From the NCBI GenBank assembly GCA_030272155.1, contig CP126200.1:3782001-3846000 (forward strand): a DNA stretch of 64,000 bases, given 5' to 3'. The position numbers were made by a program, and so were the translations under genes. This stretch comes from Tetradesmus obliquus. Lineage: Eukaryota; Chlorophyta; Chlorophyceae; Sphaeropleales; Scenedesmaceae. Each line of letters opens with the position of its first letter. Within the stretch, counting starts at the first letter, position 1. Of this stretch, positions 5,573-49,300 are shown piece by piece. The notes beneath the pieces were generated by a model. That model did not search any database, was not told where the DNA came from, and saw nothing but the letters and a program-made list of their open reading frames with translations.

Positions 5573-5804
5573 CTAAGCCTTGCTGCTGGCAAGCAGTCGG
5601 CCCGTCCAATGCAGGCGTGCGTACGCAGCAGCAGACGCAGCCGTCGTTGCTGCCACTGCTGCCTCCAATGCATCGAGCACCTCCTGCCCTGGCAGGCCCT
5701 GCCACTGCTGCGTCATGCAGCCAGCCACCAGCACCAGCACCAGTGCTGTGTTGACCTTGCTCACCATCAGCGGCTTGATGGCAGGCAGGCCAGCCTCTGC
5801 ACCA

Positions 5805-5848
<44 letters not shown>

Positions 5849-6898: not shown

Positions 6899-6961
<63 letters not shown>

Positions 6962-7273
6962 CCCCACTCACCCCTGCAGCTGCTGTCAGTGCAAAGGCCA
7001 GGGGCCACTGCTGAGTCAGCACCAGGTGGGCAGCCACGGGCCCTGACAGCACCCGGGACAGCGACAGCAGATTGGGAAGGCTGGTCCAGGAGGCACCTGG
7101 CACCTGCTGCTGCTGCTGCTGCTGCTGAGGGGTAGCTGGTGTGTGTTTGCTAGGTGCATCGGGCTGCTGCTGCAGGTGCTGGAGCCGCACCCGTTGCTGC
7201 TGGTCCTGGTGATAGCAGCAGTGCTGCTGGTGCAGGTGTGGACGTCGTTGCATCAGCATTGTCCAAGATGTTC

Positions 7274-23627: not shown

Positions 23628-25667
23628 ATGATGCACGGCTGCGTAGAAATAGGCACAATGCCAGCTGTGGCAACTGCTGCTTGTTTGAGCAGCACAAGAC
23701 CATGCTGAACCGCCACGCCCGCAACCAGCAGCAGCAGCAGCCGCCAGCTCACCTGAATGACCTTCCAGTCGTCTCCATGCACAGCAGCACCACGCCCTGC
23801 ACCTGCCCCGCAGCACCACCACAACCAAAACTATCAGCAACAGCAGCAGCAGCAGCAGCAGCCAGCGCACCTGAAGGACCTCCCCGTAGTCTCCATGCAC
23901 AGCAGCAGCACGCCCTGCACCTGGCCAGAACACTACTACCACCACCACCAAAACCATCAGCAGCAGCAGCCAGCGCACCTGAATGACCTGCCGGTCGTCT
24001 CCATGCACAGCAGCACCACGCCCTGCACCTGCCCCGCACACTACCACTACCACCACCACCAAAACCATCAGCAGCAGCCAGCGCACCTGAATGACCTGCC
24101 GGTCGTCTCCATGCACAGCAGCACCACGCCCTGCACCTGGCCAGCAGCGCCGATGCCCACAACAAAGCGCATGGCAGCCACAAACCAGAAGCTTGGCCCA
24201 GCCGCGCTGACAAGCGTGGCAGCAGCAGCCAGTGAGCTGGCCGCAAACAGAGGCACCTTGCGGCCCACTCGGTCTGACCAGGCCCCGAATAGGCCAGAGC
24301 CTGCATTGCAAAAAACAGAAAGAAGACGGTACACAGTGGAAAAGTGCAGAGCGCTGGCCTTGCGCAGCAGCAGCATCAGATGAGTTGATGCAGCAGGCTA
24401 CAGTTTCGCCATGTGTTGGGTATGTAAGTGTGCACAGTGCTGTGTGACGAGGCGCACCTATGAAGCAGCCGACAAACGTTAGGCTCAAGTTGTGTGTCTA
24501 AGTCCCAACCATCCAAACTCACAACCCTGCACCCAAATGCCGCAGAGGTGAGGTGGCGCACCTATGAAGCAGCCCACAAACATGAGGCTGTTGGCAAACT
24601 GCACCTTCCAGCCGTCGCCGCAGATCAGGTTGAAGCGGGACACAAGGCTGTCTGCAGCAGCAGCGGGGGCAGCAGCAGCAGCACGTAAGACTCCCTCCAA
24701 AACTCGCCATGCCATACGCAACACGCATCTTACATCTGCCCAGCCCAACTGCAACAGCAACCACGCACTGTGTGCCACTCAGCAAGCATATGCAGGTCCC
24801 ACACCTCCTGAAAATGCTCATGTCTAAAAAAGACGCTGCATTGGCCTCACTGTAGTTTGTCCACTGCCACGCGCCAGCCGGCAGCTCGCAGAAGGCGTGG
24901 CTGGTTGGCGCGGCCCACACCGCTGCACACGCTGCGTCAGCAGCGCTGTTGCATCGCCAGGCGTGGTTCTTGATGGGGTCGATGGTCACCTGTTGCAACA
25001 TCATCATGAACATCGTCATCACATCACCAATTGTGCCATAGCAAATACTACTGTTGCATGGAGCATCACACTCAAATATACACCGAAAGCGCTCTAAGAG
25101 CTGCTGGGAGGCAGTGTTGCATGACGGCGATTTCTGGCTGTGCTGGCTGCAATTTGAGTGCTTGCGCGACTGTGCTGGTGGCCTCATGCAGGTGTCCGCA
25201 CCGCCTTTGTCACATTTCAATGGCTGTGATGCATCATGTGCATGGCTTAGAGCCCGCCATTACTGATGTCTGTTGAGGAAGACGAGCAATGCAGCTGCAC
25301 CTGGTGCTGTGGCAGAGAGCAAACCATACATAGTCTGGTGATGCAAGACAACTGCAGGCAGAGGGCCGCAGAGCTGCTGCCATATGGCTCACCATCACCC
25401 ACAGAAGGAAGATAAGGCCATTGGGGATGCCCAACAGTGAAGCAGCTCCCACCTAAGAATCAGCACAAAACACAGCGACAGTCAAGGCAGGGTTGAGGGT
25501 TGCCCATTGCTGGGAAGGTCGTCGGTTGACCTGTACCTGTGCTGTGTTGATGAGATATGTGGACACCACCGCCAAGGCTTGCACTGCCATGGTGTGTACG
25601 GCTGCAATGCATGCTGCGTGTCTCAGTCAAGTATGCACCAACGTGAACGGTAAGGCTTGACTGGCTG

Positions 25668-31189: not shown

Positions 31190-32887
31190 ATGGTGTTTGG
31201 ACCGCTTATAGGAGCTGGACTAGGGGCTTTAGCCGGCGTGGGGGTGAGTCGTGGCAACAGCAGCTGACAAACTGGTGACTGTACCACCAGGCAGCAGCAG
31301 CAGGGCAGCAACGGGCTCAACGCTTTCACACGTCAGCACCGGACGCATTTCACGTTTCTTAAGCCAAGCTTATGCTACTGCAACTGCCACTGCGACTCAC
31401 CCACCACAGATTGGCAGCGCTGTCTTCTCTGGTGACCGCCCCAAGGACTTCAACTTCATCACAGAAGCAGCAGACAAGAATGACAACATCCGAACGCCAG
31501 CGTGTGCCAATGTGACAGATGAGATGCGCGGCATGATCCCACTCACCCCTGAGTGGACCTTCTGGCCTGACTATGACAGAGTGAGTTGGTGCTGCTGCTT
31601 GTCACCTTGACACCCGTAGTATCTCCAGGCCTGCAGGACACTTGCAGGATGCTGTTAGACTCAAAATCAAAAACTCTTGCAGGACAAGTTTTAGGTAGCA
31701 GCAGCAGCGGGTGCTGGCCTTCTGAGTCAGCCGCATAGCTGGCCATGTCAGGAAAACGTGTGCCTGTGGCCAGAATTGCAAGACAACTGTTCGATAAAAG
31801 TTGCTCACAGCACCTGCCCTGAAAGCAGCAGCAGCAATAGTTCCACATGGTTGCAGGCTCATATGCAGAGCAGCATCCGCGAGCAGGTCAGCAGGTGGTT
31901 GTTTGGAAAGCTGTCATGAAAGTATGCTGTTCAGCGCATGCCCATGCACGCTACGTTGCTTGCACAGGCGCCGTGCTGATGCTTTCAGCTGACGCCGTGC
32001 ATCCTGAAATGCCGGTGCTGGTGTCTGCCGTGGTGTTTGCTGCTGCAGTCGATGACCAACTGCATGATTTGGCTGCCGTTGCCCAAGCTAATGCATTGCT
32101 TGAATCACACATGCTGATGTCTTGTTGTTTGCCTACCGTTGTGCTGCAGTGGGTGATGATCAACCGCATGATCCGGCTGCTGTGGCCCAAGCTGACATCA
32201 GCGATTCTGCTGGAGGTGGTCAAAGCGGTCAAACCCATCGTGCAGCAGAACCTGAACGCGGTGAGGGTTTACACGCTGCTCCGCACAGCGCCGCGAGCAG
32301 GCGGCGATGCCAGCAGTGCTTGCTGATTAATCCTGCACCACATCCGCAGCTGCAGAACGTCCGCAACTACTGCGGGAACAAAGGTGTCGTGCTGCAACAC
32401 CGGTGCCTACTGCAGAGGCATCGATTATTTGGAAGCCTGTTCACCTTGCACGACAGCTCATGATTGGAACATTGGCTGCTCTTTGCAGCACTGCTGGCTC
32501 AACTTCTTCATCACCTCTGCCATGCTTTTGCTCTCCCTGTGCTGCTGCTTGATCCATCTTTGTGCAAAATTGCTATTAACTGCAGATCCCTGGAGTGCTG
32601 TCGCTGATTGATGACATCACACTGGGCCCCTACAGCATCATGGACGCGGACCACCTGGACCCACACATTGCAGGTGAGAAAGTAACAACACAACATCACA
32701 ACATAAAAATTTCTGACAGCGTGAATTGCGTGCACCATGGTTTGTGCTGTGCACGTGACAAGGTCTGCCATCACTGCTGCCAATGCTTATCGTTTTTAGC
32801 ACAGCAGGACTCGCATGACGATGTCATCAGTTGCTGCTCCGTATCCGGTCGCTGCTGGGGCTCTGGCTGATCTATGTATCACACATC

Positions 32888-32943
<56 letters not shown>

Positions 32944-34451
32944 TGCAGACAAGTACTTCACGCTGGGCGAGCACCCTGTGCGTGTGGCGGGCATGAAGGT
33001 GTACAGCACAGCGGAGGACACCTGCATCATGGAGATGCCACTCATCTGGGGCAGCAACGCAGTGGTGAGCTGAACGCCAATTGGTGGATGCATGCTGTTT
33101 TTTGCCTGCATTATGCAGATGCCGCTAATGATGGGCAGCAACGCAGTGGTGAGCCTCGGATGTTTTGAGTGCTGGTGTTCACATGCCCGTGCGTTGTAGC
33201 TTCCTTTTGCAAGTTCTGCAATTGTCAGGTGCAGTTTGATGCCGCTCATCAGGGGCAGCAGCGCAGTGGTATCCCGCAGCTATCTGTGTGCGGACACGTG
33301 TTGTGCTTTGCGCTGGGTAGCCCGAACATGTGCAGACCAACACCATCCCGTGCCAAGCTGCCGCTGCTGCTGCTGCTGCCACTGCTGCTGCTGCAGTTTG
33401 ATGTGCAGGTGTACCTGAAGCTGGGCCCAGCGCGCGTGGTCATTCCCGTGCACATCAGCCACATCCAGTACAAGGCGCTGGCACGCGTGGTGCTCAACAT
33501 GGTGGACACCATACCCTGCATTGGTGGGTTTTACTTATTCAATCATTATCACTATCGTAGTGAAGGTTCAAGAGTAAGGCAGGGAAATGCAGCACATCCA
33601 GTACAATACGCTGGCGTCAACAGTACAAAAATAACACGGTCTTGTGTGTCCGCAGGCGGCGCCACGCTGAGCCTGCTGCAGCCGATGCATCTGGACTACA
33701 GCCTGCGCCTGTTGTGCTTGGCCTGCTTACACTGCCACCTGCTCGTCTGAACACTGTCTGTTGTGTCTGCACCGGCAGGCGGCGCCACGCTGAGCCTGCT
33801 GCAGCCGATGCACCTGGACTACAGCCTGCGCCTGTTCAACGGCCCCGACATGATGGCGCTGCCGGGAGTGAAGCAGGCCGTGGACTGGGCAATCGGGGTG
33901 AGCTGGGCAGACAGACAAAAGTCAGTCAGCACAGTTGTAGCTAGGGCTGTGTGTGTTGCATGTGGTGCTGTGCAGCTGCCATGAGTAAGCATACGGTGGA
34001 CTGGGCGGTTGGGGTGAGCAGCAGCAGCGGCGGCGGCGGCGGCAGCCCTACGGCTGCGTGTGTGTGGCTCTCCACGTGCTTGTGTGCATGCTGTTGTGGT
34101 GTGCTGTGAAGCCGGCGGTGGACTGGGCACTCGGTGTGAGCAGCACTTGCTGCACTGAGGGTGTTGCTGCTATAGATGCCTGCCCAAAGCCCCCGATGTT
34201 TGCCCAACACACGGTGTGGCTTCGTCTTTGACAGGTAGTATGGCTTCAGTGCAGGCTGCTCGGGACGCCGCTGCTGCTGCTGCTGCTGCTGCTGCACTTG
34301 TTGTTTTGCTGTTGTACCGCAGATGGCGCTCTTGACCAACTGTTGCTGCTGATGCTGCTGGTCCGCGTGTTTGTTGTTATCTCTTGCAGATGGTGCTCAA
34401 GGACGTGCTGCTGTACCCCAACAGCGTGAGCGAGGCGCTGATGACAAACTA

Positions 34452-34543
<92 letters not shown>

Positions 34544-37500
34544 TCTCACTGCTGCTTCAATGGCTGCAGATGGTGCTCAAGGACGTGCTGCTGTACCTCA
34601 ATAGCGCGAGCGTGCCGCTGATGACCACAAATGCTGCTGCTGCTGCTGCTGCTGCATCTCACTGCTGCTTCAATGATTGCAGATGGTGCTCAAGGACGTG
34701 CTGCTGTACCCCAACAGCGTGAGCGTGCCGCTGATGACCAACTTTGGGGTGCCCCCGGAGCCGCAGGGCATGGTCAAAGTGACGTTGACCAAGATTGAAA
34801 ACCTCAAAACCACAGACCTGCTGACCAAGGGCGACCCCTACGTGGTGTTCGAGGTGCGGTCGAGGAGGCGCTGTTCACGCAGAAATGGACGAGACTGAAA
34901 CAGAAGCAGTCAAAATGCAGAATTTGTAATGTATTGGTGCTGGTGAGCAGGTCCTGCTTCATGCCTGGCCGGCTGTTCTGACCTGCCTCCACCCACACCA
35001 CAATGAACAACTGGCGCAAACACTGTCACACATGTTTTATATTTGTGAGGGCTGCAAGACAAGACAGTCAAGAGCAGCATTTACTTGGTGTCAACTAACA
35101 AGTGTCGTTTGACGGCCACATCGGCTGTGACAAATGTGCTGTATGCAGATCCGCGAGGGCCGCGTGCAGCGCAGCAAGACGGTCAAGAGCAGCAACAACC
35201 CTGTGTTCAACCAGGAGTTCTTCACGGTGGTGGACGACTTCCAGCAGCAGAAGCTCTCCATCAAGGTGCGGCGCAGAAATGGTATTCACCTTTGTTTTGG
35301 GATTTGCTTGTAGTGTTGGGTGTGAGTCATCGAGATGTACAACTATGGCTGCGGCTGGGCCAGAAATGCACCTTGCTGGCTGCTGCTGCTCAATGTAAGC
35401 TGCATGCATTGTGCGTGCCTGTCAGCAGCTGCATGGAACACCTCGGCATGGTAAATGCGTGCCTGCAGCCCCCGCAGGTTCAGCATCAACTGACCGGCTG
35501 CACCCCACAAGCACTATGCTGGTTGTCTCTGCTCTTTGTCTGCATGGAATCTTTGTCGACATTGTCTTCAAAGCACGACGTTGTCATTGTCATTTTGTTA
35601 TTTGGTTTTTTCTGATTGGCGTCATGCAGGTGTACGACTACGATCGGCTGTGCCCAACAGACGACCTGTTGGGCACTGCTGAAGTGTTCTTCAGTGAGGA
35701 GGCCATTGAGAGCGACCCGGCAACAGGCGGAGAGAAGGTGCGGGCGTTCTTAATAACCAGGCCTGCTCTGTTGCAGCCCTGCTTGGCGGCGCAGTTGCCG
35801 GCTGCACACTTGTGTGTGTGAAGGAAGTGTTGCGCTGGTGTGTTCAGTCGCTGTGCTGCATGCGTGTGGCTTGTCGTGTTGTGGTAGCCTGAAGGCCATT
35901 TGAAGCGACCCGGCAACAGGCGGAGAGAAGGTGCGACACGCGTGTGGCGAGTGAGGCTGAAGAGGGGTTGCACAGTGTGCACAGGGGTGGCAAGAGAGCG
36001 GTCTGTCACAGGCTGGGAAATGCAGCGAAGCGCGCGAGAAAGGTCTGTTACAGGGGTGGGCAAGCTATCGCCCTAGAGCGAGTCACTTGCCCCTCTTTCA
36101 GCTCACATATCATGAGAACCCGATAGCAAGCCACAAGATGCAACCAAAGTAAAACTCCAGAGGCATCTTGCAGCCCCTACCTCCCCATAAACCAACAAGT
36201 ACATGCAGTGCAGCATGTGCGAAGTGCAGCACGAAAAGCAGCAGGGTGCTCAAAGCACAGGGCACAAAACGCACAAGGGAAGGCAGGCATGGTCCAAACA
36301 GCAAGCGGGATGCACAATGGTGCTGCTTACCATAGGTGTTTGGCATGATTGCACCAAGGCACTGCTGTACACACCAGACTGCAGCAAGCAGGAGCACGCG
36401 GGACCGACAGGAGACACTGCATGTGACATGCAAACTAAGGTGCTACTGCTTCTGCAATCCTCATGGCTGACAAGCACAGAAGCACACAATGCGACACACA
36501 GAGCTGGAAAATCAAGCACAGTGACACACGACATGCAACATGGCCTTGCCAGAAAATGGAAATTGGACAACTACTGACAGCACATCATGTAAAAGCAGGA
36601 AGGTCAACCAGAGCGGGGCGCCAGTACAATGCGCAGCTGTGCTGGATCAGAACGCAAGAACGGGTGATCTCCAGGCACCGCAACACGCCAATGAGCCGGC
36701 GCAGCCTCCATTGCCACAAAATCAGCAAGCAACTCCCAAAACCGCAAAACCGCCTGCTGCTTCGCCTCCTGTAACACCTGCGCTAGTAGTTGCTGTCGCT
36801 GTTGTTGTTGTTGCAGCAGCTGCTGCTGCCTACGCTGCTCAACCAGCTGGTTATGCTGTTGCTGCGCAGCAGTGAGAGCTGCAGGCTGAAACACATCTGT
36901 AATAGGTACCTGCCATTGCAGCGGCGGCGCAGACGGCCGCGGCGCAGCAGGCGCGGGCGGCGGAATGTGCAGCGTGTTAGCCTGCCGTCGGCCAACATCC
37001 ATGGCATTCAGAGCAGCTAAACAAATAACCCCCCAAACACCCTGGTGGAGCCGCTTAGGGCCGGGAGGCCGCTGCATCAACCAGACATGCCGCATAGCAA
37101 GCGGCGGGCGGCCTGCAGCCCGCGTACACCATGTTGCAGGCAACGCAGACAGCAGGCTGTCAATCACCGCTACCGCAACTGGGCACTCCCAAAAATGGTG
37201 CACCAGACCAGGGCACGCAGCGCCACACATGCAGGTATCATGCTGCTGGTGCATGCGCTGCGACGTAGGCAGGCCATCCATGATCAGCCGCCAATACGTC
37301 TCCTTGTACGCATTATCCCAGCGCGTCTTCCATAGTGCGCCCTGGGCGGCTGCCACACATTGCAAACCACAAGTCAACGCCGCGGGCGGGGCACCCGCAC
37401 CGATCGCAACACTGACAAACCTAGTGCGCCGCTCCTGGCGCTCAGCACGCAGGGGACCAAGCTGCAATGAGGTAGCTTCACGAACAGACAATTGCGCAAC

Positions 37501-40299
37501 AGACACCGTCTTGCCGCGATGATTCCGCCAGCCTAGCCGCGCCACCAACATGGCCTCAACATGCTGCTCTGCTGCAGAAGGCACACATGGCGGGTCTGGC
37601 ACTGCTGCAGGCGGCCAGGGCCGGTCTGCTGCAGGATGCCGCACAACAGCCAAGGCAGCCCGATGCCACGGCATGGGCAGCAAGTTAACCAAGTCTGTCA
37701 AATCTGCCGATTCGTTGTCTGCATTGCTGAAGTTGGAGCCGTACGGCAGCAATGGGTGTGGCAGCTGCTGCCGTGCAGCATGCTGGATCACATGCCAAGC
37801 GCAACAGAGATCGGCCACAGTGCGGATGCGCGGCCGACACTTGCCGCCAGAACATGCATGTGGCCCGCGCACAGAGGGCACGGGATGCATTTGCAGCCCA
37901 CCGGGCACAAACCCAACCATTGCTTGCAAAAAAGGGTTAGCAAAGACAGGAGCCAAACTACACCAAGCCCCGGGCTGCAGCACCGGCGCATCCTGCACAG
38001 CCTGTAGCTGTGCACGCAACTGCTGCACGTCTGACAGCTGCTGAGGATGTGGCGGCGGCAGTGCAGGGGCAGGCGCCGCAGACGCCAGCGCCTTCACATC
38101 ACAAACTTTGCCTAGCGCTTGAAGACCAGCAATCATGCGGCGCAGCGGCGGGGGAGGGAGGGACTGCTGAGGGAACGCCTGCGACGGCTCCATCGGCGTT
38201 TGCGTGTCTTCAAAGCTGTCAAACAAGGACAATGGGCCCCACCATATATGCTTAGAACGCAATAGCTCCCGCCCAATGCGGATCCAAGGCAGCTCAGTGT
38301 CAGGCGGTGCAGTAGCAAACTGCGCGCCCCACCAAGCATGCCGTGCACGTATGTGTTCAAGCCATGGCAAAGCACCAAAGCCACCTTCAGCCGGCCTGCC
38401 CGCCAAAAAGCGAGCAGCCACACCAGTGAAACGCCGCACAGACGAAGCAGGTGCCAACCCTCTATCCACTAGCTTCCCAACCGCCGCAACAAGGTGCTGA
38501 CGATCAACATCAGGCGGCAAATCAGAGAATTCAGCTGCATAAAGCAAGGTGCTCACACCATAAGCAGCGCTACCCATACCTCTGCCAAACACCGAAAGCT
38601 GCGGAATGTGCGACAGCCGCGCGAGCGCAGCATCCACAGAAGCCAGCTTCTGACCCCAATCCACCGGAGAGTCAGAGCCCACGCACACACCCAACACATT
38701 GGCCTGCAGGACAGGGCTGAGCGGCAACACACCAGCAGCATGCTGCTGAGAGAGCGTCGCGTGCTGCTGCCGCGCAGTAGCACCCAGCAAAAGCAACTTG
38801 GATTTGTGCAGGTTGAGCTGCTGCCCAGATGCGGCTGCCATAACCTGCATATGTAGTAAAAACTGTGCAACCTGTGCTGGGGAGCGCAGGTAGACCTGCG
38901 TGTCATCGGCAAACTGAGTCGCTGACAACTGCACACCTTGCACGGTGACGTTGATGCCTTTACTCTGCAAAAACCTCAACAATGCCTCACCAACAAACAA
39001 GTAGAGCAGAGGAGACAGGGGACACCCCTGCCGCACGCCAGCATCAAACCTGCGCATGCCAGAAACAAAGCCATTCATGCACGCGCACGCATGCGTGTTG
39101 GTGAGCAGCAACTTCACCCACTTACAGAATTCAGGCCCCACGCCCATAGCACTCATGACAGACAGCAGGAAGGGCCTGTCCGAGGTGTCGTACGCCTTGG
39201 CAAAATCCAGCAGCGCTGCCGCCACTGTGCTGTCTTCTGGCAGCGCGTGCAGCAGGAGCTGCATGGTGATGATGTTGTGGCCGATCCTGCGGCGCTTGAT
39301 GAAAGCTGTCTGCGTAGGAGAGATAGCCTGATCTAGCACTGCCTGCAGGCGGGAGGCCAAAATTCTGGCCAAGAGCCTGTAGTCGGTGTTGAGCAGGGTT
39401 ATGGGGCGGTAGTTGGCTGCCAGGGTAACATCGCCAGCCTTGAAGATGCCGATCACCACACCGTCCAGGAAACCGGCCGGTGTCTGCCCCAGCGTGCCTA
39501 CTGCCGTAAACACACGTGCCAAGACCGGCGCGAGCAGCTCCTTGCAGTGCTTGTACACTGCAACAGGCAGGCCATCCAGGCCTGGGGACGTGTTCGGCTT
39601 GGAGTCTGACATAGCCTTGAGCACTGCGGCTGCGGTGACCACTGCGCTGCCATCTGCTGCTGCTGACGAGCGCTGTTTGTTTGTGTTTGTTACACGGGAG
39701 AGGTCTGTTACAGGGGTGGGCAAGCTATCGCCCTAGAGCGAGTCACTTGCCCCTCTTTCAGCTCACATATCATGAGAACCCGATAGCAAGCCACAAGATG
39801 CAACCAAAGTAAAACTCCAGAGGCATCTTGTTACGGGAGAGAGGTCTGTTACAGGGGTGGGCAAGCTATCGCCCTAGAGCGAGTCACTTGCCCCTCTTTC
39901 AGCTCACATATCATGAGAACCCGATAGCAAGCCACAAGATGCAACCAAAGTAAAACTCCAGAGGCATCTTGCAGCCCCTACCTCCCCATAAACCAACAAG
40001 TACATGCAGTGCAGCATGTGCGAAGTGCAGCACGAAAAGCAGCAGGGTGCTCAAAGCACAGGGCACAAAACGCACAAGGGAAGGCAGGCATGTTACACGG
40101 GAGAGAGGTCTGTTACAGGGGTGGGCAAGCTATCGCCCTAGAGCGAGTTACACATGGGGGCCAGGCAATTCCAGCGCTGCAGGTACTTCAACTGCTGCGG
40201 TGACACCACTATCATGCAGCAAACACTCAGCCAGTCCCTGGTGACTGGAGCAGCTTGGCACCTGAATTCTCACTCCTCTGCTGTGAAGTTCAGGGCGAA

Positions 40300-40335
<36 letters not shown>

Positions 40336-41828
40336 CAGGTCCCCAGTTCGATCCTGGGTTTCGCCATTACACTAAGTTTTGCTGGTGTTTGCAGTGTGTA
40401 ATAATAGTGTCGTGAGTGGCAGATGGATCCTGCCACTAGTGAACAGGAAATGGAGAAGCTATGGCAGCTGTGAGACCTCAGTTAGAAGCCGGCACACCCG
40501 ATCAAGGGAGCTTGTGAATGGACCAACTGCCCCATGCAGGAGAATAAGCTGCCGCTGCACATTCTTACGGCTTGATACTAAACACCACACATATCTAAAA
40601 TAAACCGCTGCAGGTGGTGTACCATCGTGCGGACTGGTTAAGAACCCCATGCAGGAGAAGAAGCTGGTGCTGCCGCTGCACATGTTGCTGTGGCTTGCTC
40701 ACCAAGCATGTTCTTTTTCCGCGTTAGTTTCTCTTATCCTTGATCTGCTGCCTGCAGGTGGCGCACCACCTGGCTGACTGGATCACGAGCCCCATGAGTG
40801 AGAAGAAGCTGGTGCTGCCGCTGCACATGCTGCCACACATGACATAACACCTCAAGTACTGCTGCAGGTAGCGTACAACCTCGCTGACTGCATCAAGAGC
40901 TCCATGCAGGAAATGCAGCTGGTGCTGCCGCTGCACATGCTTATGGTTGCATCACCAAAACATGACATGCTTTGAGCTACTGCCGCTGCAGGTAGCGTAC
41001 AACCTTGCTGACTGGATCCAGAGCCCCATGTGACAAAGAAGCTGGTGCTGCCGCTGCAAATGTTGCTGTGGCTTGTCAACTCAACATGACATTGCTTGAT
41101 TCACTGCTGCCTACAGGTGGCGTACCACCTGGCTGACTGGATCAAGAGCCCCATGAGTGAGAAGAAGCTGGTGCTGCCGCTGCACATGTTGCTGTAGCTT
41201 GCTCACCAAACATGACATGATTTGAACTACTGCCGCTGCAGGTGGCTTACAATCTGGCTGACTGCAAACAGCCCCATGCAGGAGCAGAAGCTGGTGCTGC
41301 CGCTGCACATGCTTATGGCCAAAGTACCCAACTCAATATGATCCTTCGATTGCTGCTGCAGGTGGCGTACCACCTGGCTGACTGGATCAAGAGTCCCATG
41401 AGTGAGAAGAAGCTGGTGCTGCCGCTGCACATGGCCGGGGGAGGCCTGCTCAAGGTAGTGAGCAAGGGCATCGCCAAGACAGCCACGGGCGCAACAGGAG
41501 CGGTGGGTTGCTGCAGCTGCTGCTGCTGCTGCGCATGAGCAAGATGGGTGCATTCTGCCAGACCGACCGGAGAGTGCACACACACACACATGCTTGTTTG
41601 TGGGATGGCTCGTGGTGCTCACCTGACATGGGCAGGGAAGTGTTACACAAGCAGGAGCAGCGTGCTGGACGAGTTGGCACAAGACTTGGTAGACAGCCGG
41701 GCAGCAGCAAGCTGGCTGGCAGCCAGGTGTCAGCAGCTTGGGGTGTGAAGGGACACCAATGGGGCTGGCGCTGCTGCTGCAGGGCGGTGCATACCAGATT
41801 ACAATGGGCAACACACAGCCAAATGCTG

Positions 41829-41882
<54 letters not shown>

Positions 41883-44800
41883 AGATGAAGCGGCTGGTGT
41901 CCATGAAGAGCGGCGGCAGCTCCCCTGACATGTCGGGCAAGACAATCATCATGGTGAGCACAATGCTTGCATCAGCCTTGCACAGCCTTGCGCAGCCTTG
42001 TACAGCCTTGTACAGCATAGCGGGAAGAGGATCAGCATGCTACGTGTTACGTTACAGCAAGATCGCCATCATGGTGAACGCGTTCATGACGTCAGCATAG
42101 TCAAGTGTCTCCCTTCTATCTGGCATTGTTAGGCATTTGCGGGGTGGCCTGATCAGGCAGCGGCAGCATGGCAACAGCATATCGGCGATCGCATTGGTGT
42201 GCTGACTGAAGTCATGATCCCGCTGATACATGCGACCTGGTGCTGCACTAGCTAGGGTTGCACATCATGCAGACACTGATACGTTGTGTTGCAGACATGG
42301 TTATGCGCCCTGCATGTCTGCTGATTGATGCTGCAAACATAACAAGCTCTGTGCTGTGTTGGATTAAAACCCAGGTGGCTAAAACTGCAAAGGAGGTGCG
42401 CCTCGAAGAGGAGCGCAAAGCAGCAGCAGAGGCCGCAGCAGCGGCACAAAAGGAGGCAGCAGAGAAGGCAGCAGCAGCACAGAAGGCCAGCACCAGCGGC
42501 AGCAGCAGCGCCGAGGCTGCTGCGGCTGCTGCTGCTGCTGCTGCTCGGGTGCCTAAGGCTGCTGAGGCTTGGAGTGATGAGGATGAAAAGGCCCTGTGGG
42601 CTGAATGGAAGCGCCTGGCAGATGAGAAAAAGGCGGCAGCAGCGGCAGGTGAGACAAGTCCCCCACAAAGGACTGTGCGGGTAGCCGTTTGCGCATGCGT
42701 CTTTCTGTCCCAGTATCTGTCTTTGTGTCCTCAACAACACTATATGTGTGCAACTTGCCACCACAGAGGCAAAGCGCGGGAAGGCTCTCACCAAGGACTG
42801 TTCTCATGGCGTTTCACTCAAGCGTCACACTGCCTTTGTCTCTGTGTGTCCCTCCAACAATCCCGTATGTGTGCAACACTGCCGCCGCAGAGGCGAAGCG
42901 CCGCAAGGCTCTCACCAAGGAGCAGCGGGAGGCGGAGGACGGCCTGCCTAGTTATGCAGACATGCGCTCCTGTCGCTGGTGATGTGCTGCCTCTGCAGCC
43001 TCGTCGCTGCGGAGGTGAAACCTCGCAAGGCTCTCACCGAGCACTGTGTGCTCCTAGCTGTGCACTGACATCAAGTCAGTGGTCTGCCTCTCACTCTGTT
43101 TGTGTGGTGTTTGTGCAACCTTGCCGCTGCAGAGGCGAAGCACGGAAAGGCTCTCACCAAGGACTGTGCTCGCAGCTGTTCACTCAAGCGTCACATTGCC
43201 TTTGTCTCTGTGTGTCTCTCCAACAATTCCGTATGTGTGCAACACTGCTGCCGCAGAGGCCAAGCGCCGCAAGGCCCTCACCAAGGAGCAGCGCGAGGCG
43301 GAGGACGCAGCCAAGAAGGCAGCAGAGGAGGCCGCAAAGAAGGCAGAGGAGGAGATCGTGCTGGTGGAGCAGGAGGTGGTGCTGCGCGGCAACGGCAGCA
43401 CAGCAGTGGAGGGCACAAAGGTGCGCTGGTTTGATTCCCAATCGCGTCAGTTTGGGTTGAGTTGTGCAGTACTACTGTGTTAATCATGCATTGGCATGTG
43501 GTGGGTTGGGCATTGTGCACATCACGCTGCAGTATATGTCATTGGAGCACCCCACATTTGACTGACTGCTGCTGTTGCCGCACCTCTTCGCTGCCTGTGG
43601 GCATGATGCACATCACGCTGCACATCACGCTGCATTATATGCATTCGAGCATCCCAAATTTGACATGTACTGCTGCTGCTGACTGCTGACACCACTGCTG
43701 TTGCTGCATCCTTCTGCTGCCTGCTTGCAGCCTGTGGGTATGATGCACATCACGCTGCAATACATGCCCTTTGAGCACCCCACCTTTGATGATGACATAG
43801 AGCTCACACCAGTCAAGGGCGGCTTTGCGCAGTACGTGCCCTTCACGCCGCCAAAGTGAGTGTGCTACTGGCAAGTGTCATAACATAATTATAACGTTGC
43901 ATTTCAGGCAGCAGCATTGTGAAGCAGCCTGCATTGACAAGTAGCCCCGCTGCTGCTGTGGATTGTATGCTGTGCAGCTGCACGTGCTTGCAGAAGTACT
44001 GCGCGCATATCAGCGGCTGCTGAGTGCAGAGAGAGTGAGCTGGTTGTAGCATGCGCACTGTTGGTATTTGCTTGCCTCACACAAGCTGCAATCTTCCGCC
44101 ACTCCTTCAAACATGACATCCATCCCTCCACACATCTTCAAGGCTTTGCATGTGCTCTACAACACAGCAACCTGAAGCTGCTACAGCCTCAACCTCACCT
44201 GTACCTCATCAGTCAACCTGGCAGTTCAATTTGCTTTAATCAAGTATTACATAACATGTTACAGAACATGTCACAAATGTCGCTGCAGGCCGCGCCAGTT
44301 CATCAGCAACATCAACGACTTCCAGCGCGGGCTGCTGACCGTGACCATCTTCAAAGCCAGCAAGCTGGCCACGCCTGGCAGCCTCACCAACCCGGACGCA
44401 TACGTGGAGATGCTGCTGGTGGACTGCGACCCGCGCAGGTGGGTGGCTTGTTTCAAACAATGTTATGACAATGGTTTGTGCAGTGCAAGGGTTTTTGTTT
44501 GAAGCTGTGCAGGTGTTGCAAAGTTGTTGGCAGCCTCACCAACCCGGACGCATACGTGGAGATGCTGCTGGTGGACTGCGACCCACGCAGGTGGGTGGCT
44601 TGTTTCAGACAATGTTATGGCAATGGTTTGTGCAGTGCAAGGGTTTTTGTTTGAAGCTGTGCAGGTGTTGCAAAGTTGTTGGCAGCATCACCAACCCGGA
44701 CGCATATGTGGAGATGCTGCTGGTGGACTGCGACCCACGCAGGTGGGTGGCTTGTTTCAAACAATGTTATGACAATGGTTTGTGCAGTGCAGGGGTTTTT

Positions 44801-46350
44801 GTTTGAAGCTGTGCAGGTGTTGCAAAGTTGTTGGCAGCCTCACCAACCCGGACGCATATGTGGAGATGCTGCTGGTGGACTGCGACCCACGCAGGTGGTT
44901 GGCTTGTTGTAACAATGAGTCTTTGCAGTGCAAGGGGTTTGTTTAAAGCTGCCTACGGTTTCAACGCTGTTGGCAGCCTCACCATCCTAGATGCATACAT
45001 GGAGATGCTGCTGGTGGACTGCGACTTGCGCAGGTATGAGGTTTGAAGGGCCATTGAGTATCAGGTCTGTGCGGTGGTTGAGGGTGTGTTTGAAGCTGCT
45101 TAGAAGCATTTGTGGAGATGCTGCTGGTGGACTGCGACCCGTGCAGGAACGAGATTTTGAAAGCCTTTGGTGGCTGAGGGTGTGTTTGAAGCTGCGTGGT
45201 GTGTACGTGGAGATGTTGCTGGTGGACTGTGACCCGCGCAGTGCAAGGTATTTTTATTCAAACTGCCTAGGGCGTTTCGAAGCTGTTGGCAGCCACACTA
45301 ACCCAGATGTGTGCGTGGAGATGCTGCTGGTGGACTGCGACCCACGCAGGTGGGGTTCAGCGCGCACAACGAAGGTCATGCGCATTGCAGGGGTTTTCCA
45401 ATCTGCCATGATGCCCTCCTTTTGTTTGAGGTTGGAGATGACAAGAACCTACAATTGCTGCTACTGCTGCTGCTGAGCGTCAAGTGCAATGACAACGCGC
45501 TGTTTTAGTCCTAGAATGCTCTCCTGATCCCTCTTGATCCCTGACATGCTGCTGCTGCTGCCCCTGCTGCCGCCGCAGGCCCAGCGAGACGCAGAAAACA
45601 AGCGTGAAGTTCAACGACAACACGCCGCGCTGGTGTGAGACGTTTGACTTTGTGATGATCAGCGCGGGCAGCGTGCTCACGCTCAGCGTGGTGAACAAGA
45701 CGGGCATCCTGGACGCCACGCTGAGCCTCAAGCTGAGCAAGGTGAGGCAACCTTGCACAGTGCACGTTGTATGCAGGGCGTGTTGTGCTTCCATTAGAGA
45801 AGGGCTTGTTTATGGGAGTTGCGCTGCCAGCTGAGAAGGGCACCCTGGACGCCACAATCAACCTGGAGGATAGAGGGGTTGCATGGTGTGTTCATGCGGC
45901 ATACGCCACCACACTCAGCCTGAAGCTGAGCCTGAAGCTGAGCAAGGTGAGGGATGTCGGCGGCATTTCATCCCGCTGGGTGAATCCCATCTGAGCGTCT
46001 CTCACCTCTCTCACACTTTCTGGTGAAGTATCTCATCACATCTCACTCCTTATTTCCTGCAGAGTCGCTTCCAGGAACAGCTGCAGATCCCTGTCGCTGA
46101 CGTGGCGCCTCCACACTTTCTCACACATCAGACATGCTCTCATACTTCTGCCACATGCTATCACATTTCCTCACTCTTCCTGCAGAGCCGCTTCCAGGAC
46201 CAGCTGCTGGGCAAGCTGCAGATCCCTGTTGCTGACGTGGCACGCAACGGGCACCTGAAGGACACCTGGCCGCTGCTGGAGGCTGAGAGTGGCACGCTTG
46301 AAATGAAGCTGAGCTGGAGCAACTGCCACGTGGAGCAGTACATGGACTAA
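31190..46350 (+). CDS. SMP- and C2-domain contact-site protein (SYT/E-Syt class)
   Basis: Eighteen exons: 31190-31243, 31410-31580, 32150-32260, 32586-32673, 32949-33064, 33397-33523, 33779-33897, 34683-34853, 35149-35265, 35630-35737, 41362-41502, 41885-41953, 42375-42648, 43257-43420, 43731-43855, 44289-44438, 45579-45741, 46186-46350. They give 2433 nt and 810 residues, all phases agreeing. The order is: one N-terminal membrane helix (1-23), SMP lipid-transfer domain (about 75-262; PEWTFWPDYDR, ITLGPYSI), C2A (about 290-400; GDPYVVFE and VYDYDRLCPTDD keep Ca-binding Asp), an Ala/Glu/Lys coiled coil (about 465-610), and C2B (about 665-800; NPDAYVEMLLVD, but loop 3 VVNKTGILD lacks most Asp). 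Such proteins tether ER to plasma membrane and move lipids. The 91-residue-plus coiled coil between C2 domains is unusual. Intron 10 is 5.6 kb and holds a LINE and a tRNA. Most introns contain partial copies of the adjacent exon. Confidence 0.92.
32047..32100 (+). repeat. Degenerate echo of E-Syt exon 3 start
   Basis: CTGCAG followed by a diverged copy of the exon 3 start (ATGATCAACCGCATGATCCG region, then TGGCCCAAGCTGA) lies about 100 bp before the genuine acceptor at 32149. It is more diverged than other echoes and the frame is lost. Confidence 0.65.
32887..32948. repeat. (CTG)n tract at the E-Syt exon 5 acceptor
   Basis: About 20 CTG units, with one TTCTG interruption, run into the acceptor CAG at 32948. 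Confidence 0.95.
33118..33272 (+). repeat. Two echoes of E-Syt exon 5 donor edge
   Basis: The codons for MPLIWGSNAVV plus donor recur with edges at 33148 (donor GTGAGC kept) and 33268 (donor changed to GTATCC), 84 and 204 bp after the real edge at 33064. Near 33226 a CAGTTTGATG also mimics the exon 6 acceptor edge. Confidence 0.85.
33656..33713 (+). repeat. Echo of E-Syt exon 7 acceptor edge
   Basis: The first 58 nt of exon 7 (GGATLSLLQPMHLDYSLRL) recur with acceptor CGCAG, 123 bp upstream of the true edge at 33779, with a single visible change (CAT for CAC). After 33713 the copy diverges into TTGTGCTTGG and stays open only to 33750. Confidence 0.92.
33990..34138 (+). repeat. Two echoes of E-Syt exon 7 donor edge
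   Basis: The AVDWAIG codons plus GTGAGC recur with edges at 34013 and 34135, at periods of 116 and 122 bp from 33897. Both keep the GGTGAGC donor, giving three stacked donors. Confidence 0.85.
34390..34640 (+). repeat. Two echoes of E-Syt exon 8, one with a CTG expansion
   Basis: Copies of the exon 8 start (MVLKDVLLYPNSVS) begin at 34390 and 34570, each after a CAG acceptor; the real exon starts at 34683. Each copy breaks off after LMT(N/T), the first into about 30 CTG units (34454-34543) and the second into a short CTG run. The copies retain about 60 nt of exon with 2-5 substitutions. Confidence 0.92.
35891..35930 (+). repeat. Echo of E-Syt exon 10 donor edge
   Basis: GCCATTTGAAGCGACCCGGC and the following GGCGGAGAGAAG plus GTGCG donor repeat the end of exon 10, 193 bp downstream of the real edge at 35737. 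Confidence 0.85.
36041..36291 (-). repeat. LINE 3' terminal unit of the long copy
   Basis: About 250 bp are virtually identical to 39842-40092. A stem-loop at 36058-36092 (GGGCAAG pairing with CTTGCCC, inner TCGC/GCGA) sits about 20 nt from the element 3' end, where LINE reverse transcriptases of the stringent type recognise their RNA. The same hairpin is at 39718-39752 and in the other copies. Confidence 0.85.
36604..39693 (-). CDS. LINE reverse transcriptase, 5'-truncated
   Basis: An uninterrupted frame of about 1030 codons has no ATG of its own at the 5' end, because the element is truncated and joined to the tail of another copy. The RT fingers-palm motifs are in order: SPGLDGLPV, NYRPITLLN, FIKRRRIGHN, LLDFAKAYDT (motif A), RQGCPLSPLL (motif B), QFADDTQVYL (motif C, catalytic FADD at about residue 262 of this frame) and LNLHKSKLLLLG. 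A C-terminal Cys/His cluster (CMCGAACPGLVHHFWECP) is typical of LINE ORF2 tails. The apurinic-type endonuclease expected in front of the RT is absent. The frame is otherwise intact, so the insertion is probably young. The copy itself should be immobile unless helped in trans. Confidence 0.93.
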   Translation of the reverse strand, partial: VTNTNKQRSSAAADGSAVVTAAAVLKAMSDSKPNTSPGLDGLPVAVYKHCKELLAPVLARVFTAVGTLGQTPAGFLDGVVIGIFKAGDVTLAANYRPITLLNTDYRLLARILASRLQAVLDQAISPTQTAFIKRRRIGHNIITMQLLLHALPEDSTVAAALLDFAKAYDTSDRPFLLSVMSAMGVGPEFCKWVKLLLTNTHACACMNGFVSGMRRFDAGVRQGCPLSPLLYLFVGEALLRFLQSKGINVTVQGVQLSATQFADDTQVYLRSPAQVAQFLLHMQVMAAASGQQLNLHKSKLLLLGATARQQHATLSQQHAAGVLPLSPVLQANVLGVCVGSDSPVDWGQKLASVDAALARLSHIPQLSVFGRGMGSAAYGVSTLLYAAEFSDLPPDVDRQHLVAAVGKLVDRGLAPASSVRRFTGVAARFLAGRPAEGGFGALPWLEHIRARHAWWGAQFATAPPDTELPWIRIGRELLRSKHIWWGPLSLFDSFEDTQTPMEPSQAFPQQSLPPPPLRRMIAGLQALGKVCDVKALASAAPAPALPPPHPQQLSDVQQLRAQLQAVQDAPVLQPGAWCSLAPVFANPFLQAMVGFVPGGLQMHPVPSVRGPHACSGGKCRPRIRTVADLCCAWHVIQHAARQQLPHPLLPYGSNFSNADNESADLTDLVNLLPMPWHRAALAVVRHPAADRPWPPAAVPDPPCVPSAAEQHVEAMLVARLGWRNHRGKTVSVAQLSVREATSLQLGPLRAERQERRTRFVSVAIGAGAPPAALTCGLQCVAAAQGALWKTRWDNAYKETYWRLIMDGLPTSQRMHQQHDTCMCGAACPGLVHHFWECPVAVAVIDSLLSALPATWCTRAAGRPPLAMRHVWLMQRPPGPKRLHQGVWGVICLAALNAMDVGRRQANTLHIPPPAPAAPRPSAPPLQWQVPITDVFQPAALTAAQQQHNQLVEQRRQQQLLQQQQQRQQLLAQVLQEAKQQAVLRFWELLADFVAMEAAPAHWRVAVPGDHPFLRSDPAQLRIVLAPRSG
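39701..40148 (-). repeat. Three stacked truncated LINE 3' ends
   Basis: Units 39701-39830 (130 bp), 39842-40092 (251 bp) and 40106-40148 (43 bp) share the 3' hairpin and GTAACAGACC end and differ only in where their 5' ends are cut. Junctions read CCGTGTAAC or CCCGTAAC. Confidence 0.9.
40294..40366 (+). tRNA. trnF-GAA: tRNA-Phe (GAA)
   Basis: A 73-nt cloverleaf: acceptor stem GGCGAAA with TTTCGCC and discriminator A, D arm GCTC...GAGC, anticodon stem CAGA/TCTG with loop CTGAAGA (anticodon GAA at 40327-40329), and T arm CCCAG-TTCGATC-CTGGG. The internal A box (TAGCTCAGTTGG) and B box (GTTCGATCC) are intact and a TTTT terminator lies at 40377-40380. There is no intron and no encoded CCA, as expected for a nuclear tRNA. 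It sits inside intron 10 of the E-Syt gene in the same orientation, about 145 bp from the outermost LINE fragment. Confidence 0.95.
40480..41361 (+). repeat. Seven echoes of E-Syt exon 11 in tandem
   Basis: Acceptor plus about 75 nt of exon 11 (VAYHLADWIKSPMSEKKLVL) recurs with starts at 40614, 40758, 40868, 40992, 41117 and 41242, with a more diverged partial copy near 40500-40563. The true exon starts at 41362. Periods are 144, 110, 124, 125, 125 and 120 bp. Six copies keep CAG before GTG. All stop matching after CCGCTGCACATG, just where the real exon goes on to AGGGLLKVV. Two copies carry in-frame stops. Confidence 0.95.
41829..41884. repeat. (CTG)n tract at the E-Syt exon 12 acceptor
   Basis: About 18 uninterrupted CTG units run straight into the acceptor CAG at 41884. 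Confidence 0.95.
42767..43256 (+). repeat. Four echoes of E-Syt exon 14 acceptor edge
   Basis: Copies of the start of the coiled-coil exon (AEAKRRKALTKEQ) begin at 42767, 42891, about 43013 and 43133; the real one begins at 43257. Periods are 120-124 bp. The repeat unit includes upstream intron sequence (TGTGTGTC...CAACA...TATGTGTGCAAC). The copy at 42891 matches best and reads through EQREAED; the one at 43013 has lost its AG. Confidence 0.93.
43503..43665 (+). repeat. Two echoes of E-Syt exon 15
   Basis: The segment MMHITLQYMPFEHPTFD is copied at about 43503-43563 and 43594-43665, upstream of the real exon at 43731. The second copy contains an internal CACATCACGCTG duplication, an echo within an echo. 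Confidence 0.88.
44439..45353 (+). repeat. Seven echoes of the E-Syt exon 16 donor edge, 152-bp array
   Basis: The C2B codons GSLTNPDAYVEMLLVDCDPRR plus donor recur downstream of the true edge at 44438. The first three copies (edges 44590, 44742, 44894) are near-identical 152-bp units including intron sequence. Four further, shorter or more diverged copies end near 45033, 45148, 45240 and 45350. The AG/GT donor is kept in most. Confidence 0.95.
45835..45950 (+). repeat. Echo of E-Syt exon 17 donor edge
   Basis: GGCACCCTGGACGCCACAAT and, after a 50-bp insertion, CTCAGCCTGAAGCTGAGC (itself doubled) with AAGGTGAGG repeat the end of exon 17, about 207 bp beyond the true donor at 45741. Confidence 0.8.
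46063..46108 (+). repeat. Echo of E-Syt exon 18 acceptor edge
   Basis: CTGCAG plus AGTCGCTTCCAGGAACAGCT and CAGATCCCTGTCGCTGACGT repeat the start of exon 18, 123 bp before the true edge at 46186, with the LLGKL codons deleted. Confidence 0.88.
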
Positions 46351-49300
46351 GCGATACATTGTACTGCCATGTGGAAGCAGTACATTGGGTGAGCGGCACG
46401 CTGGAGATGAAGCTCAGTTGGAGCAACTGCCACGTTGAGCAGTACATGGACTGAGCGGTACATTGTACTGCCATGTGGGAGCAGTATGCTGACTGCGCGG
46501 CACATTGTTTGTGTGCATGTACGGCGGAACCAAGACAGCAGCAGCTGTGGCAGCAGCTGCTGCAGCAGCTGCTGCCGTCTTGGGCTCGGGCCCTCTGTTG
46601 AGATTGGTTTGCGGCGGTTGTTGTTGGCAATGGTGTGCAATGCGGCGTGTTTTGAGCGGGGAGTTGTACAGTCTGTACTGATGTGCAGGTGACAGTGCAT
46701 TGCTTGGGGAAGCTTTGGCTGTGTGTGTCAATCCGGGTGTACTTCATGCAGAGCACCTAGAAGCATTTGGGTGGCAGGGGTTGGGGCATGTGCATCACAT
46801 GGGCATGAACACAGTCGATTTGTGTTGCTGCTGGGCATGTAGCGAGTGCTTGTTTGGTGCATGCGATAAGCGGCTGCGTACATGTTTATGTGTGATCAAC
46901 ATGTCGCTGTTGCAACCAGCTGCTGGCGCACGCAGCCGTCTTGCTGGCCATGCCAGCCACTGCAGCAGCCTGCAGCGAGTCTTGGCAATGAGTTGTTATT
47001 TGGCTTAAGTCAGGTTCAGCACTGCTGCCATGAGCTGCTAGAGTGCACATGTGCTGCACGTGCTGGCAGATGGTGAGGGGCTCTGCTTTATTTGCATGCT
47101 GGCTGGCTGTCATGGCCGCCACTGCTGCTTGCTGCAGAGTGCATTGACGAACACCACCACCAGCACAGTCATGAGGCCGTCTTGCGCTGTCGTCACGGCA
47201 CGTTTGCACGGTGCATACCATAGCTTTAGGGCTGTTGGCCAAAACTGCTGTGTGCAGGGCGTTGTATGACAGCGCGGTTGGCGCTTGCGCGGCAGCCGCC
47301 GTGGCCGTCGCAGGCACTGCCGCTATTCTAGGCTGCTATGCTGTGACAGCCGATCATGCCTGCTGTTATTGTGCACGTGCCACTAGCACTGCATGCAACG
47401 CATGTCAGTTGCATTGTCTTGGACACGAGCATGTCATTTTGTGCAATGCAGCATACTAGCAGGTGATCAACTGCTGTGCTGGGCCACAGCTGCACACCTG
47501 GCTGGGTGCAGAGCAGCTTTTAGACAACAAATGATGGTTTTGAGGTGATGCGAGTGTTCGTCAATCACAGCATAGGTATGCAACTGCATCTTCTATGTAA
47601 GTCGATACTAGTGCTGCTAACCTGGACATCTACAACTTGTAGACACGGTATGGGGGGCGCCTGGCAGTCGACTTCAAGAATCATCAACATCTAGAAGATG
47701 CTTTTTAGTGCAGCACAGCTAGCTGTATATCTGCAGATATATACAGCACCGGCAGGTGTAACACACTGTGCCTGATCAGGTTGTCTTGGCAACTGCAAGC
47801 GCTTCAGATACGTGTTTGTTACAGCTGCAAGGGCACGAAGGCCATCACGATACTCAGCACCGTACACAGAGCCAAGAAAAATCTGCCCGACACACTGAGA
47901 CAAGATGCTGATGCGGCATCGTTGGCCGGCAGCATTCATCAACTGCTACTCTGACAAGCGTCATCAAAGCCATCACGCATTGTGCCTGACTGCCTAAACT
48001 TGTGATGCTGCGCTCTACACAGCAGGCCCATCCCTAGCGTTGTACAGTTGGTCATGACATGTGGCTGTGGCAGCCGCCCCTGTGCAGATGTAACAAACAC
48101 AGACGAGTCGCGCATGCAGCGCAGCAACGTGCGCGTCACATGGTGATGCGCAGGTCATGTGACCCACGACCAGTGTGCACGTAATAACATGCAGCAGAAA
48201 TTGCAGGATGGCAACTGCCCAAGCCAGCAGATCAACCACATGGGCCGCATGTCATACCACAGCAGCACTCACTGGCGGCACAAGCAGCACCTGAACGATG
48301 ACAGGTGGCAGCTGCTGCCCTCGCTGCTGCTAGTAACTGCGTCATGCAGCACCAGCAGCAGTGGGGACACCACACTTGCTGCATCCACGTACTGTAGCGC
48401 TTGCTCTACTACTTCTCTACTGCATCCCTGTTCAAGGCTGTAGTAACAGCGGGCAACAAAGCCCAGCCCAGCCCAGCTGTGCAAAGAAGCCAAGCGCTGC
48501 CCACTTCGTTGAGATCAGCTGCTGCACTAATAAAACAGCAGTCAACGTGCCACCTATAAACACAACTTTGCAACGTGACATCGTCCTGACAAGCTCCCTT
48601 CTGTGCCTAGATATAAACCAGCTAGAATACACTGCGGAGAGCGCAGACAAACAGGCACACCACCTTCAGCCGTTGGACATGAAACAGGTCAGTCGGTAAA
48701 CGTGAAAGCAAATGCGCCACCAGAGTAACCCGCGACCAAGTTAGGCCAAACAGCCCCCAAACCACTTCCTGGCTCTGTCTGCCGTACTCCGCCGCACTGC
48801 TGCAACCAGCTGTGAAGAACCATGCTATCACAGCTCATCAACACGGCACTTTCTTTGTGTTGGTGTATGGTACACACATCTGCCAATCAATCGGCTGCTG
48901 CCGCCTGTACGGCCGGCAGCCACGCAGCCAGTTACTGTGAAAGAAGAATATTTCTCTGATGCTGCGCTAAGAAATCCTGCACACCCTCGTGATGAGACAG
49001 ACAACGCACACGATGGACAAGACACAAATGCTGCCAAGCTGCTCCACAAGCACACCACAGTCATCCCCTGCCTGTCCCTGCCCTGCCCATTCTGCAGATC
49101 TGTGTAAAACGGTGCGATGCAACCCATGCATCGAGAGGCCGGACACCCCCCACCCCTCAGCACATCAAAAGCCCTTCAGTTGCAAACCAGCCTCTCTTGC
49201 TCAGCCTAGCCACCGCCCTGACTGAACACACATATATGCCCCTGCCTCCAGCCCGCCTGTGCGTGCTGTCCACGATCTGCCGCATCCATCTGCACCCCTG

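Follow-up and report, generated by a model that had tools for sequence, protein, structure and literature searches.

Partial copies of exon edges in the introns of an E-Syt-like gene and of other genes of the green alga Tetradesmus obliquus

Results

Copies of exon edges in an E-Syt-like gene

We analysed a stretch of 64,000 nucleotides (nt) from Tetradesmus obliquus (assembly GCA_030272155.1, contig CP126200.1, forward-strand positions 3,782,001 to 3,846,000; hereafter the window), which contains an E-Syt-like gene whose introns hold partial copies of the adjoining exon edges. The hand-built model of this gene comprises 18 coding exons of 2433 nt in total and encodes 810 amino acids with no internal stop, and its reading frame is continuous with all of the copies excluded. 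The protein has two C2 stretches (Pfam, 4e-31), and its SMP-type matches score under the curated Pfam cut-offs. The guanine-plus-cytosine (GC) content is 56%, the introns are long, and the acceptors are rich in CTG, features in keeping with a scenedesmacean green alga.

We use the term echo for a partial copy of an exon edge that includes the boundary and lies in the neighbouring intron. The original prediction, made from the letters of the window alone, had listed exons 3, 5, 7 (both ends), 8, 10, 11, 14, 15, 16, 17 and 18 as having such copies on the intron side, and the echo search recovered exactly this list (Table 1). Echoes are present at 12 of the 34 E-Syt splice borders and in 9 of the 17 introns, and the predicted range of one to seven per edge was likewise confirmed. 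When microsatellites were masked and the window was compared with itself by BLAST, 59 direct pairs lay less than 2 kilobases (kb) apart, and there was no inverted pair. In the exon 11 array, the exon parts are better preserved than the intron parts that separate them; the echo at -245 differs from the exon at 1 of 72 exon sites, and its intron flank, judged by eye, is strongly diverged. The copies had been placed at exon/intron boundaries. They do lie at exon edges, but an array at 46287-46503 (period 104) also duplicates the stop codon of exon 18, which implies that copying is not restricted to splice sites.

Table 1. Echoes and other features of the window (positions count from the first letter of the window; d, distance in base pairs, bp)
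Feature	Position	Strand	Details
E-Syt-like gene (SMP-type region and two C2 stretches), 18 coding exons	31190..46350	+	hand-built model, Pfam
Exon 3 acceptor (5') edge, one echo	32049..32090	+	d -101, 81% over 52
Exon 5 donor (3') edge, echo 1; second echo ending near 33268	33105..33154	+	d +84, +204
Exon 7 5' edge, echo	33633..33713	+	d -123, 87%
Exon 7 3' edge, echo	34106..34141	+	d +238
Exon 7 3' edge, weaker echo ending near 34013		+	by eye
Exon 8 5' edge, two echoes	34384..34627	+	d -293, -113; 94-96%
Exon 10 3' edge, echo	35893..35935	+	d +193, 93%
Exon 11 5' edge, six echoes, three with frame-breaking gaps	40515..41361	+	
Exon 14 5' edge, three echoes	42656..43256	+	
Exon 15 5' edge, echoes	43507..43730	+	echo search: one; self-BLAST: two pairs
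Exon 16 3' edge, six to seven echoes	44439..45354	+	echo search: six; self-BLAST adds a seventh at +803
Exon 17 3' edge, echo	45925..45952	+	d +205, 96%
Exon 18 5' edge, echo	46035..46106	+	d -123
End of coding sequence with stop codon, echo past the stop	46391..46503	+	period 104; not a splice site
Repeat array overlapping edge of EBP (sterol isomerase-like) coding piece	29219..29634	-	EBP 7.8e-16
Repeat array overlapping edge of transporter-like coding piece	23743..24151	-	Sugar_tr 1.5e-5, 8.1e-4

Two E-Syt introns hold further features. Intron 10 contains a tRNA-Phe (GAA) gene in sense orientation (40294-40366, plus strand) and, antisense, a frame of 1039 codons with an RVT_1 reverse transcriptase domain (1.3e-28; 36604-39723, minus strand), which is adjoined by copies of a repeat of about 141 bp (39687-40151; another near 36040 by eye). 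In intron 6, at 33590-33616, there is by eye an apparent copy of the interior of exon 6 that lacks the donor, unlike the edge copies.

Sequence sample, gene models and simulations

In addition to the window, twenty random 10-kb stretches (L009-L028; 53-61% GC) and eight 3-kb loci (L001-L008) were taken from the same assembly (104.66 Mb, 17 contigs); for this species, a published table lists a GC content of 57% and a mean intron length of 462 bp (PMC5966456). The 3-kb loci were selected by a pattern search and not by random sampling. Unless named as excluded, they contribute to the counts of near pairs, echo side, GT/AG retention, codon positions, similarity ends, CTGCAG sites, position weight matrix (PWM) scores and intron percentiles, and they are absent from the counts of array position (44/58), of diverged introns beside similar exons (13/40), of short similarity (37/49) and of splice borders (50/278). 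The border count covers 22 genes with at least four borders each in the window and 19 random stretches, with L011 excluded. Array counts exclude L011, where the repeats lie within the protein, and L018, where no gene is predicted; the 37/49 count additionally excludes L010 and L012. Codon and class counts exclude L007 and L008, two of the pattern-search loci (by eye, L008 resembles a leucine-rich repeat gene); L023 and L026 are also excluded from them where this is stated.

Genes were predicted with a home-made finder whose splice matrices were fixed from E-Syt and in which CTG/CAG tracts were neutralised. With the chosen setting, it recovers 17 of the 18 E-Syt exons, on which it was trained, exactly. 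It also mistakes some echoes for exons, and the hand-made E-Syt model was used instead. Pfam matches nine of ten protein pieces from the other predicted genes, missing only the piece from L023. Two self-trained gene finders were dropped, as their training drifted towards a great excess of exons or towards CAG-type acceptors. Simulations were run on random sequence with guessed rates and with 12-60 genes in each set, and their results are to be read as a bound rather than a fit.

Spread, side and spacing of echoes

Echoes are present at 50 of the 278 splice borders, with 38/238 in the random stretches and 12/40 in the window, where the gene other than E-Syt has none at its 6 borders. Their spread among genes is more uneven than chance (P = 7e-5): 12 of the 22 genes have echoes and 10 have none. 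In a few genes, at least one border in three has an echo. Across the 22 genes, echo load did not clearly vary with median intron length (Spearman 0.26, P = 0.25). Echoes occur on seven contigs of 4.5-11 Mb.

Across all sources, near repeats comprise 231 direct and 6 inverted pairs. When echoes in either direction are counted and L011 is included, 38/175 donors and 28/193 acceptors have one, as do 3/30 stops and 1/12 starts, which again are not splice sites. Donor echoes lie downstream in 63 cases and upstream in 9, and acceptor echoes lie upstream in 46 and downstream in 11; in both cases the side on which a copy leaves the protein intact predominates. The boundary and usually its GT or AG had been predicted to be retained, and echo donors keep GT in 52/61 cases and echo acceptors keep AG in 42/45 (all sources but L011), in a search that required coverage of the border.

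The predicted period of about 110-125 bp held in part. Nearest-echo distances have quartiles of 115, 145 and 213 bp and are not tightly clustered, and 19 of 56 fall within 100-130 bp (L007, L008 and L011 excluded). The exon-derived part of an echo has a median of 54 nt at donors and 44 nt at acceptors. Since this is much shorter than the median spacing of 145 bp, the intron is not simply a copy of the exon, and the proposal of intron birth by tandem duplication at AGGT is unsupported by these lengths, the rest of the intron not having been searched separately against exons. A polymerase-slippage hot spot at CTGCAG, another proposed cause, was set aside as weak: the motif is mildly enriched near copy ends (104/860, or 0.121, versus 0.075 at random nearby positions). 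A search for a dispersed family with 31 fillers against the sample of about 290 kb, the rest of the genome being unsearched, brought none to light; 4 of the 31 fillers gave matches of 21-50 bp to other loci, the strongest from exon 17 (50 bp at 86%).

Repeats are difficult to assemble, and the assembly alone was examined here, so that an assembly artefact or chance similarity must be weighed. However, the copies are several per cent off their exons and differ among themselves in a structured way, and the inverted controls are nearly empty. We regard this explanation as extremely improbable.

Position at exon edges in observed and simulated arrays

The arrays in the 22 genes comprise 44 at borders, 16 that are intron-only, 3 that are exon-only and 2 that are mixed. 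Among within-gene arrays that are at an edge or purely intronic, 44/58 are on an exon edge. By eye, 7 of 12 inspected intron-only arrays hold no exon-like piece and 5 are echoes of exons missed by the gene finder; two further intron-only arrays were outside this inspection, which the figure of 44/58 ignores and which would raise it to 49/58.

The position of the arrays bears on one explanation, plain neutral tandem duplication, in which units of about 50-300 bp are duplicated at random, only duplications that spare the protein survive, and all parts of the copies decay alike. An analytic null that counts allowed positions and includes no detection bias predicts an edge position for 14.3 of the 44 arrays of the random loci; the observed number was 32, and this excess had seemed decisive for a link with splicing. 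By contrast, in simulations of random protein-sparing tandem duplication with neutral decay, analysed by identical detection, the share of arrays on edges was 46-78% according to the intron length and rates chosen, a range that includes the observed value. Under plain duplication, the edge bias would arise because a duplicate can be recognised for longer when it carries a conserved exon edge. Thus, edge position alone does not imply a splicing link, and we rejected the argument from position after these simulations. Plain duplication would also naturally produce the one-sidedness of echoes and the copies of stops and starts, and one setting matches the density of arrays (0.51 versus 0.54 per kb; 0.30-1.62 across settings).

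Unequal preservation of exon and intron parts

If all parts of the copies decayed alike, similarity would not be limited to the exon. Of 106 exon-echo pairs, 58 have homologous intron parts, and 48 have no significant intron similarity past the splice signal (edge-only pairs). Exon similarity is alike in the two classes (0.877 vs 0.883; first 20 bases, 95 pairs). This split is noisy, in that 23/28 nearest intron-homologous pairs pass the 95th percentile of unrelated introns by global score, as do 9/26 nearest edge-only pairs (6/26 by local score). Similarity ends within 15 nt of the intron in 34/59 donor pairs and 16/42 acceptor pairs.

Real pairs differ from simulated plain duplication in two comparisons. 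In young neighbouring pairs, compared unmasked, similarity extends across less than 0.75 of the spacing in 37 of 49 cases, whereas the corresponding simulated counts are 9/105, 10/85 and 16/67 (9-24%). In addition, exon divergence of at most 8% combined with no intron similarity was found in about 13 of 40 real cases (L023 and L026 excluded) and in about 15 of 167 simulated ones, a figure that pools eight sets, with counts recovered from printed shares, and includes one small set at 2/6. Plain duplication already fails to account for this restriction of similarity to the exon, unless introns evolve much faster here through processes outside the model, and we consider it unlikely as the account of the echoes. 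The original statement that the pattern is too regular for chance therefore stands insofar as plain neutral duplication is not a full account of it, and falls insofar as it concerned position at edges.

Decay of the copies

Changes private to single echoes are evenly distributed over the three codon positions (23:25:25) in arrays with at least two echoes outside L007, L008, L023 and L026; the counts are 30:30:52 with these four loci included and 12:18:17 in the window (L011 and echoes inside predicted exons are excluded throughout). By contrast, third positions account for 11 of the 14 changes that separate an exon from all of its echoes and for 59 of the 70 shared by a subset of echoes (four loci included). 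Even private changes together with third-position changes in the exon lineage and in subsets imply that echoes separate from the active exon at various times and drift thereafter. An overall codon bias of 82:72:242, which we had considered as a sign of coding constraint, mostly vanishes outside the four loci once private changes are separated. When L023, L026 and predicted exons are set aside, the 22 edge-only pairs that remain have a ratio of third-position to first-two-position changes of 1.69, near the value of about 1.8 that we estimate for a neutral echo paired with a constrained exon.

The donor signals show a similar loss. Edge-only echo donors have a PWM score of 3.96 compared to 8.04 for the real donors, and intron-homologous echo donors score 5.97 compared to 7.58. 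GT is kept by 27 of 34 edge-only donors, and among these only 11 of 31 changed positions at +3 to +6 hold a common base. These results bear on the possibility that echoes are functional and selected as decoy splice sites, as originally suggested, or as alternative exons. The retention of GT and AG (for AG, 41/42 in a separate count) and the calling of some echoes as exons by the gene finder are consistent with function, but the even private changes, the loss of donor consensus, the frame-breaking gaps in three of the six exon 11 echoes and the 10 of 22 genes with no echo at all argue against it. The decoy proposal is thus unsupported despite the kept AG, and function as a general explanation is in our view very unlikely. 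Judged by their changes, most echoes are probably dead, being untranslated and decaying with no visible selection on codons.

An exception is L026, a pyruvate kinase locus, whose echoes differ mainly at third positions (11:12:69). At this locus two short exons have several copies (1685-2911 and 3733-4230), most of which retain AG and GT, and these could be genuine tandem or alternative exons.

Discussion

The combination of intron-side copies, private changes without codon preference and exon parts that outlast the intron parts beside them leads us to favour, with even confidence, an account in which local duplication that spares the protein is followed by renewal of the exon half of each copy from the exon. 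Short direct duplications would arise locally in and around genes, with the nearest copy mostly 90-270 bp away. Those across a single exon edge would be tolerated, provided that the gene goes on using its original outermost splice site, or its original stop or start; a copy outside the coding sequence with the original site still used would explain why echoes are on the intron side. Echoes would be born from the real exon at differing times and would mostly decay untranslated. The exon-derived part would repeatedly be renewed from the real exon by short-tract conversion or by template switching between copies, while the intron-derived part would diverge and be lost, until the exon edge and its splice signal were the sole similar stretch remaining. 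Renewal would explain the likeness limited to the exon edge, the absence of codon selection in the copies and their uneven apparent age. A tandem origin is implied for at least part of the echoes by the homologous intron parts in 58/106 pairs and by the 9/26 nearest edge-only pairs at or above the 95th percentile of unrelated introns by global score, and may extend to all. In eight arrays, conflicting site pairs number 15 compared to 5.5 expected on one tree (P = 0.04), as exchange between copies would produce. This account is close to the repair-template and conversion ideas in the original prediction.

Several results weigh against it. Our simulations of conversion yield short copies in 20/101 cases, and other settings give 0.25-0.33, compared to 37/49 observed, so that the renewal step as modelled is insufficient; simulated exchange of the slippage type brought no gain in exon-limited pairs. 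The 15 conflicting site pairs are confined to three of the eight arrays. Among the nearest edge-only pairs, 17/26 fall under the 95th percentile of unrelated introns by global score. A search of borders with the intron part only found a copy for 18/307, and in the 13 of these that are flush, the two parts are preserved to a similar degree (intron 0.84 and 0.87 versus exon 0.875 and 0.917), which is the prediction of plain duplication. With L023, L026 and predicted exons set aside, the third/first-two ratio of the remaining 46 intron-homologous pairs is 3.43, and the third-position share for the nearest echo per border is 0.58 (0.50-0.68; 38 borders without L023 and L026), above the expectation for a neutral echo. 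The third-position excess in L026 points the same way. Finally, the retention of AG in 41/42 acceptor echoes exceeds what their divergence would predict, and detection favouring AG may not fully explain it. Because the direct support for renewal is weak and the conversion model falls short, we hold the account no more firmly than stated above and keep as a serious rival the edge-directed insertion of short templated pieces.

By such insertion, 20-90 nt of an exon edge with its splice signal would be placed 90-270 bp into the intron without flanking intron sequence, and slippage between copies would later enlarge the tandem arrays. This would account for the predominance of short copies among young pairs of at least 85% identity (77/94, and 37/49 of the neighbouring pairs compared unmasked), for the loss of donor-side similarity within 15 nt in 34/59 pairs, and for the mostly unrelated flanks of edge-only pairs. 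However, copies of exon interiors are nearly absent (2 mixed arrays compared to 44 border arrays), and insertion would therefore require a mechanism aware of splice sites; we know of no mechanism that recognises a splice site for templated insertion. Moreover, acceptor similarity stops as early in only 16/42 pairs, flanks are still alike in 9/26 nearest edge-only pairs, and the exon 11 and exon 16 arrays include homologous intron parts. We consider edge-directed insertion quite unlikely. A bolder extension of renewal, which we put forward as distinctly doubtful, is that exon edges are self-renewing sources, at which a DNA process acting on the edges of transcribed genes prints or refreshes copies, with introns of this lineage growing from their borders; RNA- or exon-templated repair would be a candidate process.

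The closest parallel is the exon or sequence stuttering described for avian dot chromosomes (PMC12954441, Genome Biol Evol 2026). In chicken, 236 introns of 115 genes are affected, 190 of the 236 being on dot chromosomes, and the exon parts measure 20-187 bp. As in the birds, a lateral part of an exon with its splice site is copied one to many times into the adjacent intron, the source adjoins the exon border, and the reading frame of the gene is untouched. The exon part is tens of bases long in both (medians here of 54 for donors and 44 for acceptors, compared to 36 in chicken), and both have tandemly related clusters, here of up to seven copies, as well as purely intronic ones. The algal echoes belong with exon stuttering, as a variant rather than a separate kind. 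The avian study links stuttering to high GC and reports it from birds, with a mention of gerbil genes as data not shown. Unlike avian stuttering, which is mostly on GC-rich dot chromosomes, echoes are present in 12 of 22 sampled algal genes, on seven contigs and at 53-61% GC. That a stuttering-like pattern is common in this sample of a compact genome at moderate GC implies that it is peculiar neither to birds nor to dot chromosomes. Length polymorphism was demonstrated in the birds, whereas the algal pattern is known from one assembly; neither a test of exon against intron parts nor one of neutral changes appears in the consulted sections of the avian study (PMC12954441). Literature searches limited to open-licence PMC papers gave no report of exon-edge copies in algal introns.

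Two other systems are related less closely. Tandem exon duplication and mutually exclusive exons also place several similar exon-like pieces in one intron. Unlike these, the algal copies are mostly partial, decaying edges, some with broken frames, and L026 comes nearest to them. In intron gain by tandem genomic duplication at AGGT, as summarised in a review (PMC3443670), a duplicated exon segment becomes the intron. The local tandem duplication beside a splice-site-like sequence is shared, but the algal introns pre-exist, and the exon-derived part fills only a fraction of the spacing. Two consequences of the echoes are practical and evolutionary, respectively: gene finders are prone to take them for exons, and their formation offers a route by which introns may lengthen from their borders.

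Other repeats in the window and the sample

The original prediction had extended the pattern to a transporter gene and a sterol isomerase gene of the window. It found partial support, in that a Sugar_tr-like and an EBP-like coding piece each overlap a repeat array (Table 1); the second Sugar_tr match (8.1e-4) is under the cut-off. A minisatellite with a unit of 26 bp and 11.5 near-identical copies is present at 22358-22656 of the window. In the random stretch L018, direct repeats of up to 100% identity with a smallest spacing of 531 bp occupy 3519-7070.

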